From contig NZ_GL890780.1 in NCBI RefSeq assembly GCF_000211415.1, positions 113,814 to 177,813 on the forward strand: a stretch of 64,000 nt of DNA. Direction: 5' to 3'. Of this stretch, positions 299-9,144 are shown piece by piece. Every line of letters starts with the position of its first letter. The first letter of the stretch is position 1. The position numbers and the translations under genes were made by a program. The notes beneath the pieces are model-generated. The model made no database searches. It worked only from the letters and a program-made list of their open reading frames with translations, and was not told the origin of the DNA. The stretch is from Enterobacter mori LMG 25706 (GTDB lineage Bacteria; Pseudomonadota; Gammaproteobacteria; Enterobacterales; Enterobacteriaceae).

Positions 299-1678
299 TT
301 AGTCCACCGAGCCCCAGACAAGGTTACCCTTGTGGAACGTCGCGGTACGAGGTGAAATGCGCGCCACCGCTTCGGCGGAACAGGAGGCATCCACCAGCAC
401 AAAGCTGGCGTCGTCCTGCGCTTTCGGCCACACGCGCTCGCCTTTGTCGTTCAGCGGCAGCACGTCGCCGGTGGCGATACCGAGCGCGCGGGAGAGCGTC
501 TGCTCGTTCGGGCGAATGTAGAGCTGCGCATAAAGATTCGCTTTTTCCAGCATGTCCCCCAGACCGTAGGGCGACCAGTGGTCGATCACGCTGTCGGTCC
601 CCGTCATCACGAACACGCCCTTCTCACGCAGCTGCTTCAGCGGCATATGCAGAGTGCCAATCGGCACGGTGGAGGCGATGGTCACCTGCTGCGCCGCCAT
701 GCGGGTGGCGATCTCATCCACCTGCTGCTCGTTGAGCGTCGCCAGCGCGAAGGCGTGGCTGATGGTCAGTTTGCCCTTCAGCTCCGGCGTTTTCTCCACG
801 GTTTCGACCATGTAGTTCACCGCCGCCACGCCCGCCGGGCTGGTTTCGTGCAGGTGAATATCCACCCCTTTGTCGTAGTCCAGCGCGATCTGGAACATCA
901 GATCGAGAGATTTCTCCATCGCACCGTCAACGTTAGTCGGGTCCAGCCCACCCACGTAGTGCGCCCCGGCCTGCATCGCCTCGCGCATCAGCTTTTCAGA
1001 ATTCGACAGCAGCAGCCCATGCTGCGGGAAGGCGACGATTTCGCAGTCAAAACCCGCTTTGCGGCGCGCCAGCACTGCCTGCAGATTTTCCAGGTTTTTC
1101 AGGCCGGAAACCGGCTCAATATTGCAGTGGCTGCGGGCGATGGTAGAGCCTTTCGACTGGATCAGGTCGATCAGCTTTTCCGCGCGTTCCTGGGTGTAGG
1201 GTTGCAGCTCCGGCAGCATTTTTTGTTCCAGGCGGATCATGTCCTGAATCGTGGTACCCGCCGGACGGTTCAGCGAGCGCCACGGGCCGCCGTAAAAGGT
1301 TTTATCCAGGTGGATGTGCATGTCGCGCATCGCCGGGAGCATCAGCTTGCCGCCCGCGTCATAGTGCGACAGCGTGGCGTCGGCATGGCTTTTATTGTCG
1401 CGCAGGGCGACGATCTTGCCGTCTTTGATTTCCAGCGTTTTCAGCTCGGTGCGGGTGCTTGTCGCCACGCTGCCGTCAACGTTAAACCCGGCTTCGAGCA
1501 GCACGTTGTCCAGATAGTAATGCTTAGCGGTGATGTTCATCAGTTTGCCCGTCTCGCAGGTTGGCTTTGCGGTATCCGCAGCATACGCGACGGAGCCGGT
1601 AGCGCCAAACAGCGCGCAGGCGGTGACCATTTTGCCGCTCTGGCTGATGAATTCGCGGCGGCTTTTGTATTCACTCAT
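299..1678 (-). CDS. Tat-exported CodA-like amidohydrolase
   Basis: A 459-residue metal-dependent hydrolase of the cytosine deaminase (CodA)/amidohydrolase superfamily. Visible metal or catalytic residues are HIH at 121-123, HLHE at 275-278, His308 in ISHAF, and TDSVIDHW at 361-368, which matches the CodA block holding the catalytic Asp. The N-terminus has a twin-arginine motif, SRREF at 6-10, followed by a hydrophobic stretch ending AYA/A near residue 34, so the enzyme is predicted to act in the periplasm. I chose the ATG at 1678 because GGAAG lies just upstream; an in-frame ATG at 1693 has no site of its own. It is the last gene of the island operon, one base after the carbamate kinase stop. 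Substrate unknown; a ring amide or a deamination is likely. Confidence 0.85.
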   Translation of the reverse strand: MSEYKSRREFISQSGKMVTACALFGATGSVAYAADTAKPTCETGKLMNITAKHYYLDNVLLEAGFNVDGSVATSTRTELKTLEIKDGKIVALRDNKSHADATLSHYDAGGKLMLPAMRDMHIHLDKTFYGGPWRSLNRPAGTTIQDMIRLEQKMLPELQPYTQERAEKLIDLIQSKGSTIARSHCNIEPVSGLKNLENLQAVLARRKAGFDCEIVAFPQHGLLLSNSEKLMREAMQAGAHYVGGLDPTNVDGAMEKSLDLMFQIALDYDKGVDIHLHETSPAGVAAVNYMVETVEKTPELKGKLTISHAFALATLNEQQVDEIATRMAAQQVTIASTVPIGTLHMPLKQLREKGVFVMTGTDSVIDHWSPYGLGDMLEKANLYAQLYIRPNEQTLSRALGIATGDVLPLNDKGERVWPKAQDDASFVLVDASCSAEAVARISPRTATFHKGNLVWGSVD

Positions 1679-1679
1679 C

Positions 1680-2636
1680 TTATCTTCCTTCATTAACAAT
1701 ATGGGTACCGGTTTCTCCGCGCAGCGCCGCGGGCAGGCAGTCCGGCGAGGTGATAATCACGCGCTTGCCGCCATGGTGTAAAAATTCCAGCGAGGCGACG
1801 ATTTTGGGGAGCATGCTGCCCGCCGGGAAGTGGCCCTCTTCCATGTAGCGCGCCATCTGCGCCACGTTTACAGCATCCAGCGCCTGCTGGTTTGGCTTGC
1901 CGAAGTTGACGCATACCTTTTCCACGCCAGTGGTGATCACCAGCACGTCGGCGCGGATCTCGCGCGCCAGCAGCGCGGTGGAGAGATCTTTATCAATCAC
2001 CGCGTCGACGCTCTGATAATCCCCCTGCTCACTGCGAACAACGGGGATCCCCCCGCCGCCCGCGCCGATTACCACAAAGCCTTTTTGCGTCAGCGTCTTG
2101 ATGGCGTCGGCCTCAACGATGCGCAGCGGCTGGGGTGAAGCCACCACACGACGGTAGCCCCGACCGGAATCCTCAACAAAATGCCAGTCCGGGTGCGCGC
2201 GCTGCAGCTCGTCGCGCTGTGCCTCGCTGAAAAACGCACCGATCGGTTTCGTCGGGTGCGTAAAGCCGGGATCGTTTTTATCCACCTCTACCTGCGTGAC
2301 GACCGTGACCGCTTTTTGCTCTCCGCGCGCGGCAAGCCGGTTATTGAGCGCCTGCTGGATCAGGTAACCGATGCCGCCCTGCGTATCCGCCACGCAGTTT
2401 GCCAGCGGGGTCAGCGGCAGCCCTTCCCGCTCGTGGGCGATTTCGGCACGGCGCAGCTCCAGCCCCACCTGGGGGCCGTTGCCGTGGGTGAGAACGATGT
2501 CATAGTCGGAGGCCAGCATTTCCAGCACCGACTCGGCCACCGCTTTCACCGCCTGCGTCTGATGTTCAACCGACTGGCTGGCGTTGTCTTTGATAATGCT
2601 GTTGCCGCCGATGGCGACGACCATAAGCTCTTTCAT
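1680..2636 (-). CDS. carbamate kinase (ArcC/AllK family)
   Basis: A 318-residue amino acid kinase-fold protein that catalyses reversible transfer of phosphate from carbamoyl phosphate to ADP, giving ATP, CO2 and ammonia. Family features are VAIGGNSI near the N-terminus, THGNGPQVG at about residues 50-58, GAGGGGIPV at about 192-200, and DKDLSTALLA. Length matches carbamate kinases (about 300-315). The start overlaps the stop of the permease gene (ATGA), and the stop lies one base before the amidohydrolase start, so the three genes are translationally coupled. With no ornithine carbamoyltransferase or arginine deiminase nearby, the carbamoyl phosphate most likely comes from the FdrA/DUF1116 proteins encoded in the same operon (inference). 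Confidence 0.93.
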   Translation of the reverse strand: MKELMVVAIGGNSIIKDNASQSVEHQTQAVKAVAESVLEMLASDYDIVLTHGNGPQVGLELRRAEIAHEREGLPLTPLANCVADTQGGIGYLIQQALNNRLAARGEQKAVTVVTQVEVDKNDPGFTHPTKPIGAFFSEAQRDELQRAHPDWHFVEDSGRGYRRVVASPQPLRIVEADAIKTLTQKGFVVIGAGGGGIPVVRSEQGDYQSVDAVIDKDLSTALLAREIRADVLVITTGVEKVCVNFGKPNQQALDAVNVAQMARYMEEGHFPAGSMLPKIVASLEFLHHGGKRVIITSPDCLPAALRGETGTHIVNEGR

Positions 2637-4213
2637 TTTGTTTCCTTTAGAAGGTGCGTTCTGCTGCCCTCACCCCGGCCCTCTCCCACAGGGAGAGGGG
2701 GATTAACAGAGATATCCAGCACATGCTTCACCACAAACATGCCGCCCATCATCAGATACGCGGTGACGAACATCAGCGAACTGCCTTCGGCAAATCCCAC
2801 CACCGGGGCATGGATCACCCCAAACAGCGCCAGCAGCGCCCCGCCCGCAGCGGCGACAGCCCCGCGCAGCGGTTTGTTGATGATGGCGAAGATGGCGATA
2901 CAGCCCCACAGCATGCTGGCGAGCGGTGCGCCGTTGCCGAGATGCATCAGCCCTTCGTAGTAGATCCCTTTGCTGTGCAGCACGTCGGTGCCGATTTTCC
3001 CCGCGCTGGTGCCTGCGGCGCTCATCACGCTGTTCATCATGGTCAGCGCCCAGTTGGCGATCCACGGGAACAGGCAGATGAAGATGACGGGCACCTCCAC
3101 TTTGGGCGTTTCCCTCACCACCTGGTTGGCCGTCACGACGCCGATAAACACCAGAATCGGCACGATGGCGGTCATCGGTATGATGGCGAGCATAAACGCC
3201 CCCAGCCCGAACAGCGGCACGATGAACATGGTCACGCCCGAGGCCAGCGTGTAGCCGATGCTGGCCCCCATCGCTTTCCAGCCGGGATGGCCGACGTAGA
3301 CCGTGACCGGGAACGGGTTCCCCATCAGGCAGCCGAGCATCGACGCCAGACCGTTCGCCAGCATCACCTTGCGGGTCGGGTATTCATCCCCCGCCGCATG
3401 GGCGCTTTCGATGTTTTCCAGGTCAAAGATGTAGTTCGCCAGCCCCAGCGGTACGGCAGAGGCAAGATACGGCAGCGCGTGCGGCAGGCCCCGCAGGAAG
3501 CCTTCTACGTGCACCTGCGGCGGGTTAAAGCCGAAGGAGGACATGGACGCTTTAATCGCTTCCGGGCTTTGCAGACCCGAGAGCCACGCTAGCGCCGTTC
3601 CTGCAACCAGCAACAGCAGACCGGTCGGGATTTTGGCGAAAATGGGCTTTTTACCGAACCAGTTAATAAAGATCAGCAGCAGCACGATAAACGACACGGT
3701 CGGTGCTTCGAACGCCTGCAGCATCGGGTTCATCGCCAGCAGCAGCAGGCCCAAACCGGAGAGGCACGACAGCAGCACGGTGCGCGGGATCATCTTGCGG
3801 ATGGTCTCACCCAGGAACGAACCGCCCGCCAGGATCATCGCCTCAACAAAGCACCACACCAGGCCAATCTGAATGGCGAACTCCGCATCGCCCGTTTGCT
3901 GATACACCGGCATCAGCACCAGGAAGGTTACGGTAAAAATTGACGGCGCGCTGGGGCCGGACGGCAGCGCGGTGACATCCGTTCGCCCGGTGGCGCGCGC
4001 CATTTGCATGCCGAACCAGGCGTAGCAAATACTTGCAACCAGCACCGCCAGCCCGAAGGCTGGCGCGATGCGCCCATAAACAATCTCCTTCGGGATGCCG
4101 ACGACAAAAATGAGCAGCCCCATCATGGTCAGCAAATTGGTCAGGTTGTTGGTCATCAACCCGAAATACGCCGCCCAGTCACCTCTTTTCCACTCCAGTT
4201 TCATGTTTTTCAT
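2633..4213 (-). CDS. NCS2/xanthine-uracil type permease
   Basis: A 526-residue inner-membrane protein with about 12 to 14 hydrophobic segments. Its sequence resembles uncharacterised permeases related to the NCS2 nucleobase family (polar helix signatures TALPSGPSAPS and NPFPVTVYVGHPG). It is presumably the uptake system for the substrate of the island. The last 23 residues, starting NPPLPVGEGRGEGSR, are encoded by an intergenic repeat that also fixes the overlap with the carbamate kinase gene. This tail is unlikely to be an ancestral part of the transporter. Start at 4213; an internal ATG (Met4) is also possible. Confidence 0.85.
   Translation of the reverse strand: MKNMKLEWKRGDWAAYFGLMTNNLTNLLTMMGLLIFVVGIPKEIVYGRIAPAFGLAVLVASICYAWFGMQMARATGRTDVTALPSGPSAPSIFTVTFLVLMPVYQQTGDAEFAIQIGLVWCFVEAMILAGGSFLGETIRKMIPRTVLLSCLSGLGLLLLAMNPMLQAFEAPTVSFIVLLLIFINWFGKKPIFAKIPTGLLLLVAGTALAWLSGLQSPEAIKASMSSFGFNPPQVHVEGFLRGLPHALPYLASAVPLGLANYIFDLENIESAHAAGDEYPTRKVMLANGLASMLGCLMGNPFPVTVYVGHPGWKAMGASIGYTLASGVTMFIVPLFGLGAFMLAIIPMTAIVPILVFIGVVTANQVVRETPKVEVPVIFICLFPWIANWALTMMNSVMSAAGTSAGKIGTDVLHSKGIYYEGLMHLGNGAPLASMLWGCIAIFAIINKPLRGAVAAAGGALLALFGVIHAPVVGFAEGSSLMFVTAYLMMGGMFVVKHVLDISVNPPLPVGEGRGEGSRTHLLKETK
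2667..2701. repeat. CCCTCACCC...CTCTCCC repeat inside a coding region
   Basis: An imperfect inverted repeat (CCCTCACCCC, then CTCTCCC ACA GGGAGAG). The same family is present at 20401, 28091, 40558, 44721, 61416 and 61463. Here it lies within the 3' end of the permease gene and is read through as protein. Confidence 0.85.
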
Positions 4214-4224
4214 GGATGCTTGCC

Positions 4225-5640
4225 TTATAAAAAGTAGCGATCGCGGAAGGTCAACAGCGCCTTTTCAAAACAGCTAAACGGCGGGTGAACGATGCCCGCC
4301 CCAATCATGCCGATGCCCGCGTCTTTATGGGCAATGGCGGTGTTAATGACCGGCAGAATGCCGCTGCCCGCGACTTTGGTAATGTCGATGGCGGTTGGGA
4401 TGCCCATAAACGAGAGCAGCGGAATGGTGACGTTCGGGTTTTCGCCGAGGGTGATTTCGCGCATCTGACGGGAGAAGTCGATGGCTTCGTCCACCGTCCC
4501 ACCCACCAGCGCAACGATTGCCGGAGCCGTCGCCATCGCAAAGCCGCCAATGCCGTAGGTTTCGGTGATGGCGCTGTCGCCGATATCCAGCCCGGAGTCT
4601 TCCGGCTTATAGCCCGCGAACATCGGACCGATCACCTGCTGCGCCGGGCCGGTGAACCACTGCCCCGGCAGGCCGGAAATGCGCAGGCCGAACTCGTAGC
4701 CGTTGCGCGCCATGGTGGTGACGACGGTGCTGTACTCAATGCCGTGAGCGGCGTCCAGCGCGGCCTTGCACATCGCCATCCACGTCGGGCCGGAGAAGTA
4801 GTCGCTGCTGGCGACAAACTCAAATACCTCGCGCTGCTGCTCCACCGGATAGCCCGCCTGGATCAGCCCCGGCGTCAGCGCCTGGATCAGCAGCGTGGTG
4901 CCCGCGTTGTTGCGGTTGTGGCACTCGTCGCCCATGTGCAGCGCCTGCGCCAGCATCAGGCGCAGGTCGATTTCGCCGATAATCTTCATCGCGTCGCGCA
5001 GCATCGGGCCGAGCACGTCGCGCATCCAGTTCAGGCGGTCGATGACGCTCTGGTCGTTGGCCCCCATGCGCAGGATCTTCGCCATCTGCTCGCTGAGGTT
5101 GGTGAACGCGCGGTTGCCGTAGGTTTTGTTTTCAACGATGTGCATAAACATCGACGCGGAGGTGACGCCCGCCATCGAGCCCACGCAGTCATGCTCGTGG
5201 CACGGCGAGAACGTAATATCTCCGGAGGCGGCGAGCCTTGCCGCCTCGTCCAGATCTTTCGCCAGCCCTTCAAACACCAGCGCCCCGGTGACCGCACCCT
5301 TCATTGCCCCGCACATGTTTTCCCAGGAGACGGGCGGACCGGCGTGCAGAATGGTGGTGCGGGTCATCCCCGGAACAACGTTAATGGCCTGGTCATAGCC
5401 CACCAGTACCGGATGGGACTGAATAATGCGCTCAAGCGCAAGCTTGTTGGCGGCGGCGATTTTCTCCGCCAGCGGTTTTTCGGCCAGCTGGTCGAGCGCC
5501 TCAACGACCTGCATATTGCCCTGCCCCGGCGGCGTCCAGTCGAGCTGGGTGACGGGAACGTGCTGTTTTTTGAGGTCATCGCTGAACATCGCAATGCCGA
5601 CGTTAATGACGTTCAGCGGCTGGTTGAATAAGGTCGTCAT
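4225..5640 (-). CDS. DUF1116 protein, AllG/YlbE-like
   Basis: A 471-residue protein of the DUF1116 family, whose E. coli member YlbE (AllG) is reported to be part of the oxamate carbamoyltransferase of allantoin degradation together with FdrA and YlbF. A conserved-looking block, SPCHEHDCVGSMAG, lies at about residues 158-171 and includes His and Cys that could be catalytic or bind metal. The start ATG at 5640 overlaps the fdrA stop (TAATG), which implies coupling and a complex with the FdrA-like protein. No DUF2877 (YlbF/AllH) gene is found anywhere in the island, so this complex may have a different subunit make-up. Activity is inferred, not shown by the sequence. Confidence 0.85.
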   Translation of the reverse strand: MTTLFNQPLNVINVGIAMFSDDLKKQHVPVTQLDWTPPGQGNMQVVEALDQLAEKPLAEKIAAANKLALERIIQSHPVLVGYDQAINVVPGMTRTTILHAGPPVSWENMCGAMKGAVTGALVFEGLAKDLDEAARLAASGDITFSPCHEHDCVGSMAGVTSASMFMHIVENKTYGNRAFTNLSEQMAKILRMGANDQSVIDRLNWMRDVLGPMLRDAMKIIGEIDLRLMLAQALHMGDECHNRNNAGTTLLIQALTPGLIQAGYPVEQQREVFEFVASSDYFSGPTWMAMCKAALDAAHGIEYSTVVTTMARNGYEFGLRISGLPGQWFTGPAQQVIGPMFAGYKPEDSGLDIGDSAITETYGIGGFAMATAPAIVALVGGTVDEAIDFSRQMREITLGENPNVTIPLLSFMGIPTAIDITKVAGSGILPVINTAIAHKDAGIGMIGAGIVHPPFSCFEKALLTFRDRYFL

Positions 5641-7181
5641 TATGCTTTCTCCCCTTTGCAGACAAATTCGCGTGCCAGTAATCCGGTGTTGGTACTGCTG
5701 CTGGCCCAGATAACGCCAGCGTCGGTCAGCAGCTGGCACTGCTGCGCCAGCGACTGCGGATCCTGGTCGGTACCGAGCACGTAGCCGAGAATTTCCAGAG
5801 GACGGTTATCCGCCTTCGCGATGGCCTGCGCCTCCTTAATGGCATCAAGCATCACCCCCACCGGATCCTCATGCGCGCCGAAGCCCAGCACGAAGTCCAT
5901 CACGATGACGCCCACCTCTGGATCGCGCGCCTCCTGCAGCAGGCGGCTGATGCGGTTGGTCGGGTCGATCATCGGGTGCGGCTTGCCGTTGGTGAAGTCG
6001 TCGTCGCCAAAGTCGAGGAAGGTGTGGGCTTTACTGACGCTGATGTCACTCAGGCGCCTGGCCGGATCAGGCTGAATGTTGCTGTAGACGTCGTCGAATT
6101 TCGCAAGCGCCGCAAACATCGCCTCGTCGCACAGGGTGCCGCCGCAGAACAGGCCGCGAATGTACTTCTGCTGCGGGGTCAGGCGGGCGCGCACCTCTTC
6201 AATCAAAGGCCAGTTGAGCGGATGCAGGTCCAGGGACTCTTTTTTGATGCCGGTAAGCAGGACTGCCTTCAGAGCCGCCTCTTTGGTGCCGCGGGCAAAC
6301 TGCAGGCCGTCTTCATCGGCGGGCGGTTCGCTGCGGCCGAGGAAGCAGACGACCACCGGCTTGCGGCAGGATCTGGCGCGGGCCAGCACTTTTTCTGCCA
6401 CCGCTGGCGCTGGCGGTTTGGAGATCAGCGTGAGAACCTGGGTGCCCTCGTCGGCTTCCAGCATGTCGATGGCGTCGAGCATCATCAGGCCGCCAATTTT
6501 CTCGCTGAGATCGCGCCCGCCGGTACCAATCAGCTGCGACACGCCGCCGCCGAATTCGTGAATGCGCACGCTCAGCTCCTGGCTGCCGGTGCCGGAAGCG
6601 CCGACGATGCCAATCGAGCCGCGGCGCACCGCGTTAGCAAAGCACAGTCCCGCGCCGTTGATGATGGCGGTGCCGCAGTCCGGCCCCATCATCAGCAGCC
6701 CTTTCTGGTGCGCGAGCTGCTTCAGCGCCAGCTCGTCGTCGAGCGACACGTTATCGGAAAAGAGCATCACGTTAAGATCGTTTTCCAGCGCCTGGCGCGC
6801 TTCGCGGGCGGCGAAGGTACCGTTGACGGAAATCACCGCAAGGTTTGCGTCAGGACGATGGGTTTTGGCGCTGGCAATCGTGGCGTAGCGCGCTTCATGG
6901 GAGCCTGCGCTCTCTTTACGGGTGAACAGCGCTTCGATGGCCGCCAGCGTTTCATCATTCGCCGCGTCGCCTTTAATCACGATCATCAGGTCGCCGTTTT
7001 TGGCTTCGGCTAATTCTGGCGTTAATAGCCCGAGGTTTTTTAATACGCCTTTGTTCATTTCCGTTGCCATAGCCACAAACGCCTGCTCGACGCCCGGCAA
7101 TTTATTGGCTTTGGTGGAAACGGACATTAATGATACGGAGTCAAAATAGGTATTCTTTTTAATCACGATTTTCGTTGGCAT
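5640..7181 (-). CDS. FdrA/AllF-like acyl-CoA synthetase-fold protein
   Basis: A 513-residue homologue of FdrA (AllF), built like the alpha and beta parts of succinyl-CoA synthetase. The nucleotide/CoA-binding region contains MGPDCGTA and GIVGASGTGSQE, followed by GTGGRDLSEKIGG, the equivalents of the SucD signature. In E. coli FdrA works with YlbE and YlbF in oxamate transcarbamylation. The ORF can be extended upstream to 7232, but the ATG at 7181 has the good ribosome binding site (AGGAGA, 5 bases). It is the second gene of the operon after the ankyrin gene, separated by about 107 bases holding a hairpin. Confidence 0.85.
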   Translation of the reverse strand: MPTKIVIKKNTYFDSVSLMSVSTKANKLPGVEQAFVAMATEMNKGVLKNLGLLTPELAEAKNGDLMIVIKGDAANDETLAAIEALFTRKESAGSHEARYATIASAKTHRPDANLAVISVNGTFAAREARQALENDLNVMLFSDNVSLDDELALKQLAHQKGLLMMGPDCGTAIINGAGLCFANAVRRGSIGIVGASGTGSQELSVRIHEFGGGVSQLIGTGGRDLSEKIGGLMMLDAIDMLEADEGTQVLTLISKPPAPAVAEKVLARARSCRKPVVVCFLGRSEPPADEDGLQFARGTKEAALKAVLLTGIKKESLDLHPLNWPLIEEVRARLTPQQKYIRGLFCGGTLCDEAMFAALAKFDDVYSNIQPDPARRLSDISVSKAHTFLDFGDDDFTNGKPHPMIDPTNRISRLLQEARDPEVGVIVMDFVLGFGAHEDPVGVMLDAIKEAQAIAKADNRPLEILGYVLGTDQDPQSLAQQCQLLTDAGVIWASSSTNTGLLAREFVCKGEKA

Positions 7182-7259
7182 TATTTTCTCCTGAAAGCGG
7201 ATAAAAGGGGGCCGCCGTCGTGCAAAATGCACGTCGGTTAAAAATACTTTTGAATTAAC

Positions 7260-7281
7260 GGCCAGCCGGAAAAGGCTGGCC
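7260..7281 (-). terminator. hairpin between ankyrin gene and fdrA-like gene
   Basis: An 8-bp perfect stem (GGCCAGCC/GGCTGGCC) with a 6-base loop, 7 bases after the ankyrin stop. There is no real T-tract in either direction, so this is either a weak attenuator or an mRNA-processing/stability hairpin that lowers expression of the genes after the ankyrin gene. Confidence 0.35.
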
Positions 7282-7288
7282 GAATGCG

Positions 7289-7894
7289 TTATGCGCCTGC
7301 CGCCAGCAGCAGCTCGGCTATCGCATCGAAGCCTTTTTCCCGCGCCAGCTCGAGCGGGGTTTTGCCATATTTGTCGGTCATGTGCGGGTTCGCGCCGTGA
7401 TCCAGCAGCAGCTTGACGATCTCCTGCTGCTTCGCGCCGCCGTCGTTAAGCACGATCGCTTCCAGCAGCGGCGTCCAGCCGACAAAATTGGTGTGGTTGA
7501 CGTTGATATCCGTTTTTTTCAGCAGCTCGCGCACGATCTCCACGTGCCCTTTTTCACTGGCAGGGGTAATGCCCACGCCGCCAAAGCGCGTCAGGCGGTC
7601 AAGATCCGGGTTTGCCGGAAGCACAAGGCGCAGCAGGGTAATATCGTTGGTCAGGCAGCTAATCAGGAAGGGGTTAAAGCAGGTCTGGTCCTGTTTATCA
7701 ATATCCGCACCGGCGGCAATTAATAGCTCCACGCAGGAATAATGCTTTTTCAGGCTGGCAATAATAACCGCGGTTCTTTTCTGACGGTTGGTGGCGTTAA
7801 TATCCACGCCTTTCTCCAGACAGGCTTTTAGCGCATCGCTATTGCCCTCTTCTGCCGCCAGCAGAAATTCAGTAACGAGTTCAGTTTCAGACAT
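7289..7894 (-). CDS. ankyrin-repeat protein
   Basis: A 201-residue protein made almost entirely of ankyrin repeats (about five to six). Repeat signatures are visible: GVDINATNRQKRTAVIIAS, LLIAAGADIDKQD, TPASEKGHVEIVREL, GWTPLLEAIV and KYGKTPLELAREKG. No signal peptide is seen, so it is probably cytoplasmic and works through protein binding. It is the first gene of the island operon, with GGAG upstream of ATG 7894, and is divergent from the LysR gene. Why a catabolic operon begins with an ankyrin protein is unclear; it may scaffold or inhibit one of the enzymes (inference). Confidence 0.85.
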   Translation of the reverse strand: MSETELVTEFLLAAEEGNSDALKACLEKGVDINATNRQKRTAVIIASLKKHYSCVELLIAAGADIDKQDQTCFNPFLISCLTNDITLLRLVLPANPDLDRLTRFGGVGITPASEKGHVEIVRELLKKTDINVNHTNFVGWTPLLEAIVLNDGGAKQQEIVKLLLDHGANPHMTDKYGKTPLELAREKGFDAIAELLLAAGA

Positions 7895-8214
7895 ATTCAG
7901 ACTCCGATGTTTTTTATTTCTGTTGACCTGAGAATAGCAACAGCCTGGTCATAAAAGAATCCGCTTAAAAATGATTCATCGACAGTCAATTCATTGTTGA
8001 GTTAAATTCAATAAACCGGTTAAAACGTGCGTCTGTGCAACCTTTTTCTTATGTTTAACCGCGTTTTAGCGCGCGAAGCTGCATTATGCTTATGCCTGAC
8101 GAAGCCTTACCGAGTGCGGCCTGCAGCAAATAGTCAGAACTGTGACCGGCTTCAAATGCGTTGTAACACCGTTGTTAAAATATGTTCAAAACTGATGGCT
8201 GACGGGAGTGAGAT
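7895..8214. promoter_or_regulatory. divergent regulatory region, island operon / LysR gene
   Basis: A 320-base AT-rich intergenic stretch between divergent genes. It contains ATTG-N12-CAAT at about 7993-8012 within an AT-rich patch, compatible with a LysR-type site. The small ORF at 8027-8218 overlaps this region but has no family match I recognise and no good start. I could not fix promoter elements with confidence. Confidence 0.45.
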
Positions 8215-9144
8215 ATGAATTCCATCTTTACCGAAGAGAACCTGCTGGCCTTCCCCACCGCGGCGCGCTTTGGCAGCTTCAGCAAAGCCGCCGCCGAACT
8301 GGGCGTGACGACCTCCGCCATCAGTTACACCATTAAGCGCATGGAGACCGGGCTGGACGTAGTGCTGTTTGTGCGCAACACGCGCAGCATCGAACTGACC
8401 GAGTCCGGCTTTTACTTTTACCGCAAGGCCACCGACCTGCTAAACGACTTCCATGCCATCAAGCGCGGGATTGATACCATTTCGCAGGGCATTGAGGCGA
8501 GGGTGCGCATCTGTATTAATCAGCTGTTGTATACGCCGCGCCACACCGCCAGGCTGCTGCAGGTGCTGAAAAAACAGTTTCCGACCTGTCAGATCACCGT
8601 CACTACAGAGGTCTACAACGGCGTCTGGGATTCTATTATCAACAACCAGGCCAATATCGCGATTGGCGCACCGGACACGCTGCTCGACGGCGGCGGGATT
8701 GATTACACGGAAATTGGTGCTATTCGCTGGGTCTTTGCCATCGCGCCGGAACATCCGCTCGCCTTTGTTCCCGAACCGATAGCGGAGAGCCAGCTGCGCC
8801 TGTATCCGAACATCATGGTGGAAGATACCGCGCATACCATTAACAAAAAGGTTGGCTGGCTGCTGCACGGGCAGGAGGCGATTCTGGTACCGGATTTCAA
8901 CACCAAATGCCAGTGTCAGATCCTGGGGGAAGGGATTGGCTTTTTGCCGGAATACATGGCGAGAGAGGCGGTGGAGGATGGACTCCTGGCGACGCGACAC
9001 ATTAACAACCCGCGCCAGGATTCGCGCATGCTGCTCGCCACGCAGCATGCCGCGACCGGTCAGGTGACGCGCTGGATCAAACAGCAGTTTGGTCCAGAAG
9101 GTGTGCTGACCGGGATCTACAGCGATTTACTCTGGCGTGCTTAG
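8215..9144 (+). CDS. LysR-family regulator, AllS-like
   Basis: A 309-residue LysR-type regulator. The N-terminal winged helix-turn-helix spans about residues 5-65 (FGSFSKAAAELGVTTSAISY). The effector domain shares the arrangement of AllS, the activator of the E. coli allantoin genes, notably the stretch INQLLYTPRHTARLL followed by YNGVWDSI. This similarity is judged from memory of AllS and supports a ureide-type inducer. It is divergent from the catabolic operon, as LysR regulators usually are from their targets. The ATG at 8215 follows GGGAGTGAG. Its stop codon overlaps the yqaE stop on the other strand. Confidence 0.88.
   Translation: MNSIFTEENLLAFPTAARFGSFSKAAAELGVTTSAISYTIKRMETGLDVVLFVRNTRSIELTESGFYFYRKATDLLNDFHAIKRGIDTISQGIEARVRICINQLLYTPRHTARLLQVLKKQFPTCQITVTTEVYNGVWDSIINNQANIAIGAPDTLLDGGGIDYTEIGAIRWVFAIAPEHPLAFVPEPIAESQLRLYPNIMVEDTAHTINKKVGWLLHGQEAILVPDFNTKCQCQILGEGIGFLPEYMAREAVEDGLLATRHINNPRQDSRMLLATQHAATGQVTRWIKQQFGPEGVLTGIYSDLLWRA

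Follow-up and report, generated by a model that had tools for sequence, protein, structure and literature searches.

The window analysed here is a 64,000 nucleotide (nt) stretch of the Enterobacter mori LMG 25706 genome (contig NZ_GL890780.1, positions 113,814 to 177,813), which carries a cluster of seven genes and an unusual intergenic spacer (Table 1). Six genes are transcribed from the minus strand in the order ankyrin, FdrA, AllG, permease, carbamate kinase and amidohydrolase, with a LysR regulator gene divergent from them. FdrA (AllF) and AllG belong to families that in Escherichia coli form an enzyme together with a third protein, AllH; the assignment of this FdrA/AllG/AllH enzyme dates from 2024, and its authors consider it unlike any other transcarbamylase (PMC11326118). 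At the E. mori locus the first two genes are kept and the AllH gene appears to have been lost. The first-pass annotation of this DNA had reported the same seven genes, and their coordinates and families were confirmed, the carbamate kinase by a curated model. From FdrA through to the amidohydrolase the gene ends overlap or nearly do so, and a gap of 107 nt separates the ankyrin and FdrA genes; the starts of FdrA (7181) and AllG (5640) were placed by comparison with homologues. The G+C content of the cluster (59%) is close to that of the window (58%), so composition gives no mark of recent foreign DNA.

Table 1. Features of the gene cluster, in window coordinates, with the evidence for each assignment.
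Feature	Position	Strand	Evidence
YahJ-type amidohydrolase (AtzC/CodA superfamily)	299..1699	-	PRK06846 694 bits, cut-off 447; best solved relative 6nbo; twin-arginine leader SRREFI...AYA; likely start 1678
YahI-type carbamate kinase	1680..2636	-	PRK12352 613 bits, cut-off 266
Permease, UapA/UraA/SLC26-like fold, without Pfam family	2633..4213	-	
AllG/YahG (DUF1116)	4225..5640	-	PF06545 300 bits; solved relative 3clq
AllF/YahF (FdrA), coenzyme A (CoA)-binding and CoA-ligase domains	5640..7181	-	PRK06091 500 bits, cut-off 433; solved relative 3dmy
Spacer, 107 nt, at the place of AllH in relatives	7182..7288	-	two predicted hairpins and GGCCCCCTTTT
YahD-type ankyrin-repeat protein	7289..7894	-	PF12796 and related
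Conserved palindrome ATTGTTGAg-N5-TTCAAtAAa, candidate LysR operator	7993..8015		alignment of 17 chosen LysR-ankyrin spacers
YahB-type LysR regulator	8215..9144	+	90% identical to E. coli YahB; below AllS and PunR cut-offs

Sequence and gene order make the cluster orthologous to yahB/D/E/F/G/I/J of E. coli, a cluster that is itself uncharacterised and in which yahE is the AllH gene. At the DNA level, 5370 of 5426 E. coli genomes have a match to the FdrA gene, and in 5006 of them a single place accounts for 80% or more of the query; the shorter matches may include the paralogue allF. In E. coli C41 the match lies within yahB-yahC-yahD-yahE-(fdrA/yahF)-yahG-yahH-yahI-yahJ, where yahE encodes a DUF2877 protein (AllH score 100 bits, cut-off 25). 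The C41 and E. mori clusters agree in gene order and orientation, with the LysR gene divergent and the others co-directional, and their LysR, ankyrin, FdrA, AllG, carbamate kinase and amidohydrolase proteins share 68–90% identity. They differ in that E. coli has yahE and yahC (DUF1097) and lacks the permease, whereas the window has the permease, lacks yahC and has no yahE between its ankyrin and FdrA genes; the neighbours also differ, being betT, pdeL and prpR in E. coli. The yah-type clusters of Citrobacter, Buttiauxella, Serratia and Providencia contain all the genes of the E. mori cluster including the permease, but additionally carry AllH between ankyrin and FdrA. The cluster had initially been taken for a novel island, which does not hold because E. 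coli carries the same cluster as yahB-J; it is instead a new form of an operon that is known yet uncharacterised. Literature searches by name found no functional study of the yah operon; in a pathogenic E. coli, deletion of yahJ gave a mean competitive index of 0.70 (p 0.02; PMC7549933).

Other copies of the cluster vary in content. At the place of the permease in relatives, E. coli has YahH (L001 12026-12322), which reads as three copies of a 31-residue repeat and so might be repeat DNA in translation and not a true protein. A giant-panda E. coli holds a plasmid-borne copy (L002 538-8970) with AllH, the permease and a frameshifted LysR gene but without the amidohydrolase. A minimal set of LysR, ankyrin and amidohydrolase genes (L136 6991-10383), without FdrA, AllG, permease or carbamate kinase, pairs the ankyrin protein with the amidohydrolase.

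The absence of a DUF2877 gene had been noted for the cluster itself, and a search of the whole genome with profile models bore it out: PF11392 (AllH/DUF2877) gives no match anywhere in the assembly (96.8% complete, 23 contigs), while the same search finds AllH in an E. coli control. The same absence is seen in 57 of the 61 genomes of the genus, AllG being present in 59 and AllH in four. A yah-type AllG, recognised by a score of about 300 bits, occurs in 57 of the 61 genomes and has no AllH adjoining it at any of these 57 places, although these counts rest on AllG scores and the DNA was read only for the fetched loci. The four genomes with AllH (G012, G015, G047 and G060) have it beside another, higher-scoring type of AllG, a type that is found without AllH in three more (G021, G058 and G059).

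We compared the window with 82 fetched loci, consisting of the best 80 of 186 relatives and two from E. coli, a sample in which distant forms are under-represented. AllH lies between the ankyrin and FdrA genes in 58 loci and is missing from 24, of which 23 (L037-L059) are labelled Enterobacter, Lelliottia, Leclercia, Silvania, Huaxiibacter or Enterobacteriaceae and one is Aeromonas cavernicola (L102). When FdrA and AllG were concatenated into 85 rows, the resulting tree grouped the window with L037-L059 as a single clade of 24 (support 100), nested among AllH-bearing rows. L102 and L120 are placed elsewhere, the latter on a long branch that leaves its placement unsure. The genes stpA and/or alaE flank 22 of the 23 loci of this clade (L044 is too short to show its flanks), and they also flank the AllH-bearing loci of Trabulsiella (L065, L116) and Yokenella (L081), which points to deletion at one site. 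It had been suggested that the missing AllH and the permease together set the cluster apart, but most permease-bearing relatives among the 82 loci also have AllH, which is absent from the clade of the window, A. cavernicola and a few other lineages.

The spacer left between the ankyrin and FdrA genes is 104–109 nt long across the clade, and no remnant of AllH is visible in it, either in the window or in the 23 loci. It contains two predicted hairpins (7259-7282 and 7215-7237) followed by GGCCCCCTTTT at 7203-7213, ahead of the FdrA start. The exact GGCCCCCTTTT occurs in the window and in 21 of the 23 loci, with the other two being one base off; the 58 loci with AllH all lack it. Seven of the 15 pairs in the consensus fold are changed on both sides, and in the second hairpin two pairs are broken or gapped in 4–6 of the 24 rows, partly from alignment slippage. 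The corresponding gap in A. cavernicola is 282 nt and lacks GGCCCCCTTTT. Where AllH is present, its end abuts or overlaps the start of FdrA, a coupling that the spacer also replaces in the clade. Our favoured interpretation, to which we give a probability of roughly 0.55, is that the AllH gene (yahE) has been cleanly lost from the Enterobacter orthologue of the yah operon and that FdrA-AllG works as a two-subunit enzyme.

The second part of this interpretation is supported by how the pair has evolved, as well as by two-part pairs in other lineages (L117, L118). Within the clade that lacks AllH, FdrA has a median omega of 0.051 and AllG of 0.044, compared with 0.028–0.066 and 0.013–0.033, respectively, in four AllH-bearing groups. 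All cluster genes of the clade have omega values of 0.03–0.08, none of the 24 rows has a broken FdrA or AllG, and the rise in omega relative to Citrobacter is common to every cluster gene. At alignment columns that are at least 93% conserved in AllH-bearing rows, clade-specific changes number four in FdrA and one in AllG, compared with two each in carbamate kinase and the permease, one in the ankyrin protein and none in the amidohydrolase or LysR. Strong purifying selection with almost no clade-specific changes means that the pair looks functional without AllH. The first-pass annotation had proposed a two-part transcarbamylase that works with the carbamate kinase; the selection evidence supports the retention of the two parts, and the activity is presumed by analogy with AllFGH.

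Several observations weigh against a working two-subunit enzyme, beginning with experiments on the allantoin pathway of E. coli. Wild type produced 17.7 mM oxamate from allantoin, delta-allF and delta-allG none, and delta-allH still 1.2 mM, a residue that taken alone favours a pair active without AllH (PMC11326118). Complementation of a triple mutant with allFG, however, brought back 7% (2.9 +/- 3.3 mM), a value hardly different from zero, and the larger share of 16% came from allGH in the absence of allF (PMC11326118, Table 3), so residual activity is not peculiar to the loss of AllH. In the authors' view all three genes are required, with full oxamate output depending on allH (PMC11326118). 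Leakage from chromosomal yahEFG, genes not mentioned in the main text (PMC11326118), may account for what activity is left when either allH or allF is missing, and chromosomal yahF could explain the 16% obtained from allGH. AllH itself has invariant motifs, GxGxGLTPxxDDxL and SGxDxL, that resemble an active or binding site. The omega of AllG in the clade is above that of all four AllH-bearing groups, making some relaxation possible. We also know of no activity for any yah cluster. Finally, in a draw of 295 genomes from the family AllH lies within 8 kb of AllG at 98 of 106 AllG places, and AllG is nearby at 98 of 98 AllH places. The eight exceptions comprise the three genomes of the genus in this draw, G555, G657, G591 and one copy each in G456 and G702; the G555 site is at a contig end, yet that genome has no AllH, and G456 and G702 hold several AllG copies.

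Other properties of AllH are as expected of a minor component. Its omega, 0.19–0.23, exceeds the FdrA and AllG values of the same groups by a factor of 3–18. In 40 of the 58 AllH genes ATT or ATC is the only start codon with a Shine-Dalgarno-like match upstream, and in 25 of these 40 the stretch ahead of the conserved TAD motif contains neither ATG nor GTG nor TTG; the remaining 18 start with ATG or GTG. E. coli yahE (L001 8134-9018) is annotated from a GTG eight codons later. In Zophobihabitans entericus (L091 9098-11551) AllH and FdrA form one open reading frame of 817 codons with an internal ATG at the FdrA start, a fusion that suggests contact between the two proteins. The complex proposed for E. 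coli would contain fewer copies of AllH than of AllF and AllG, if we read correctly a formula in which AllG is printed twice (PMC11326118). Fast evolution and ATT or ATC starts would fit AllH being a low-dose accessory subunit that can be dropped. A bolder proposal, which we put forward tentatively and with less than even confidence, is that FdrA-AllG is the minimal catalytic core and that AllH is deliberately kept at low dose and was discarded by a whole clade without compensating changes in its partners. The three-subunit rule taken from E. coli would then fail, and yah would be an energy-yielding ureide pathway that starts in the periplasm.

It is also conceivable, though we think it unlikely, that the AllH-less pair now catalyses a different reaction or uses a different ureido compound, perhaps one like allophanate, and that AllH was lost as being needed only for the old substrate. 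A draw of 398 genomes from the phylum is relevant here, in which AllG was found in 16 genomes (15 over cut-off). Three belong to the genus, and seven of the other 13 were positive for AllH. The six that lack AllH include one weak broken AllG match (G303), four divergent AllG proteins of 90–215 bits (G253, G076, G358 and G389) and one full AllG (G315). In G315 (L117), and in G591 (L118) from the family draw, FdrA, AllG and carbamate kinase genes stand beside a relative of biuret amidohydrolase that scores under the cut-off of its model and in L117 is fused to an allophanate-hydrolase C-terminal domain; a profile search found no AllH in either genome. Both sets share the two-part pair and carbamate kinase with the window, but have an isochorismatase-type hydrolase in place of its amidohydrolase and ankyrin genes. 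Two-part pairs have thus turned up more than once, and for this type the most promising lead is a substrate resembling biuret or allophanate. A related arrangement in nitrifiers, in which allFGHK lies beside triuret and biuret genes, includes AllH (PMC12625717, 2025). The amidohydrolase of the window being nearest to AtzC-type enzymes among solved structures also favours a switch. On the other hand, the near lack of clade-specific changes at conserved FdrA and AllG columns and the retention of the candidate operator and other genes argue for the same substrate.

Replacement of AllH in trans by an unrecognised protein, too distant for profiles, is somewhat harder to sustain. AllH evolves fast and profiles can miss distant relatives, but a profile of 27 AllH proteins that is positive in G226, G047 and G012 finds nothing at E <= 10 in the E. 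mori genome, and the cluster genes of the clade, where known cluster genes were looked for, are the same as elsewhere minus AllH. We regard it as improbable that the pair without AllH came first and that other lineages acquired AllH afterwards. AllH-less pairs do occur in several lineages and the tree needs few changes either way; however, the AllH-less clade is nested among AllH-bearing rows, its flanking genes are shared with AllH-bearing copies, and no AllH place in the family draw is without AllG. Decay of the pathway after AllH loss, to which the lack of an amidohydrolase in the stretch read of L079 and L120, the survival of only LysR, ankyrin and amidohydrolase genes in G098 and the slightly raised AllG omega might point, is very improbable given the low omega of every clade gene and the intact FdrA and AllG in all 24 rows.

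An RRxF leader of the twin-arginine translocation (Tat) type is present in all 79 amidohydrolase copies read (83 loci), and E. coli YahJ is among predicted Tat substrates (PMC7549933). This protein had been described as CodA-like, but its nearest solved structures are N-isopropylammelide hydrolases of the AtzC type (6nbo, E 3.8e-45), and the best cytosine deaminase model in NCBIfam gave 106 bits against a cut-off of 438. Alignments contain the HxH, H, D pattern, whose residues we take to have metal roles. Ring opening by this enzyme is a guess: its solved relatives are named for removal of a side-chain amine, and the leader places it outside the cytoplasm. The regulator is a YahB orthologue rather than the AllS-like protein first suggested, scoring 259 bits with NF007501 against a cut-off of 372. 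The permease has the UraA/UapA fold of NCS2/SLC26-type transporters; Pfam at E up to 10 returned two weak non-transporter rows only, NCBIfam returned nothing at 0.001, and a profile search returned no solved relative at E <= 1. Its C-terminus (window 2633-2720) varies, with proteins of 514–526 residues in the clade, and in the window reads by eye like translated intergenic repeat DNA.

Taken together, the yah-type cluster probably breaks down a urea-like compound for energy and nitrogen. The LysR protein (YahB) would control the divergent operon, and the amidohydrolase, if exported as its leader predicts, would have a periplasmic ring or amide compound as its substrate, the product being imported by the permease if its fold is a guide to function. 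By analogy with AllFGH, a two-subunit FdrA-AllG would then phosphorolyse an N-carbamoyl (ureido) compound to an amine and carbamoyl phosphate, from which the carbamate kinase would yield adenosine triphosphate (ATP), CO2 and ammonia, the reaction of its family. AllH would be a low-dose accessory subunit that this lineage has dispensed with. The E. coli AllFGH system with AllK is alike in its FdrA and AllG families and its carbamate kinase, and there the released carbamoyl phosphate can give ATP (PMC11326118). The cluster in the window differs in lacking AllH and allantoin genes and in having another regulator, a permease, an ankyrin protein and a Tat-type amidohydrolase. A natural lineage with FdrA and AllG but without AllH offers a convenient way of finding out which subunit is responsible for the chemistry, with simple proteins for assay, and through it the yah genes, carried by most complete E. 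coli genomes, gain a testable role.

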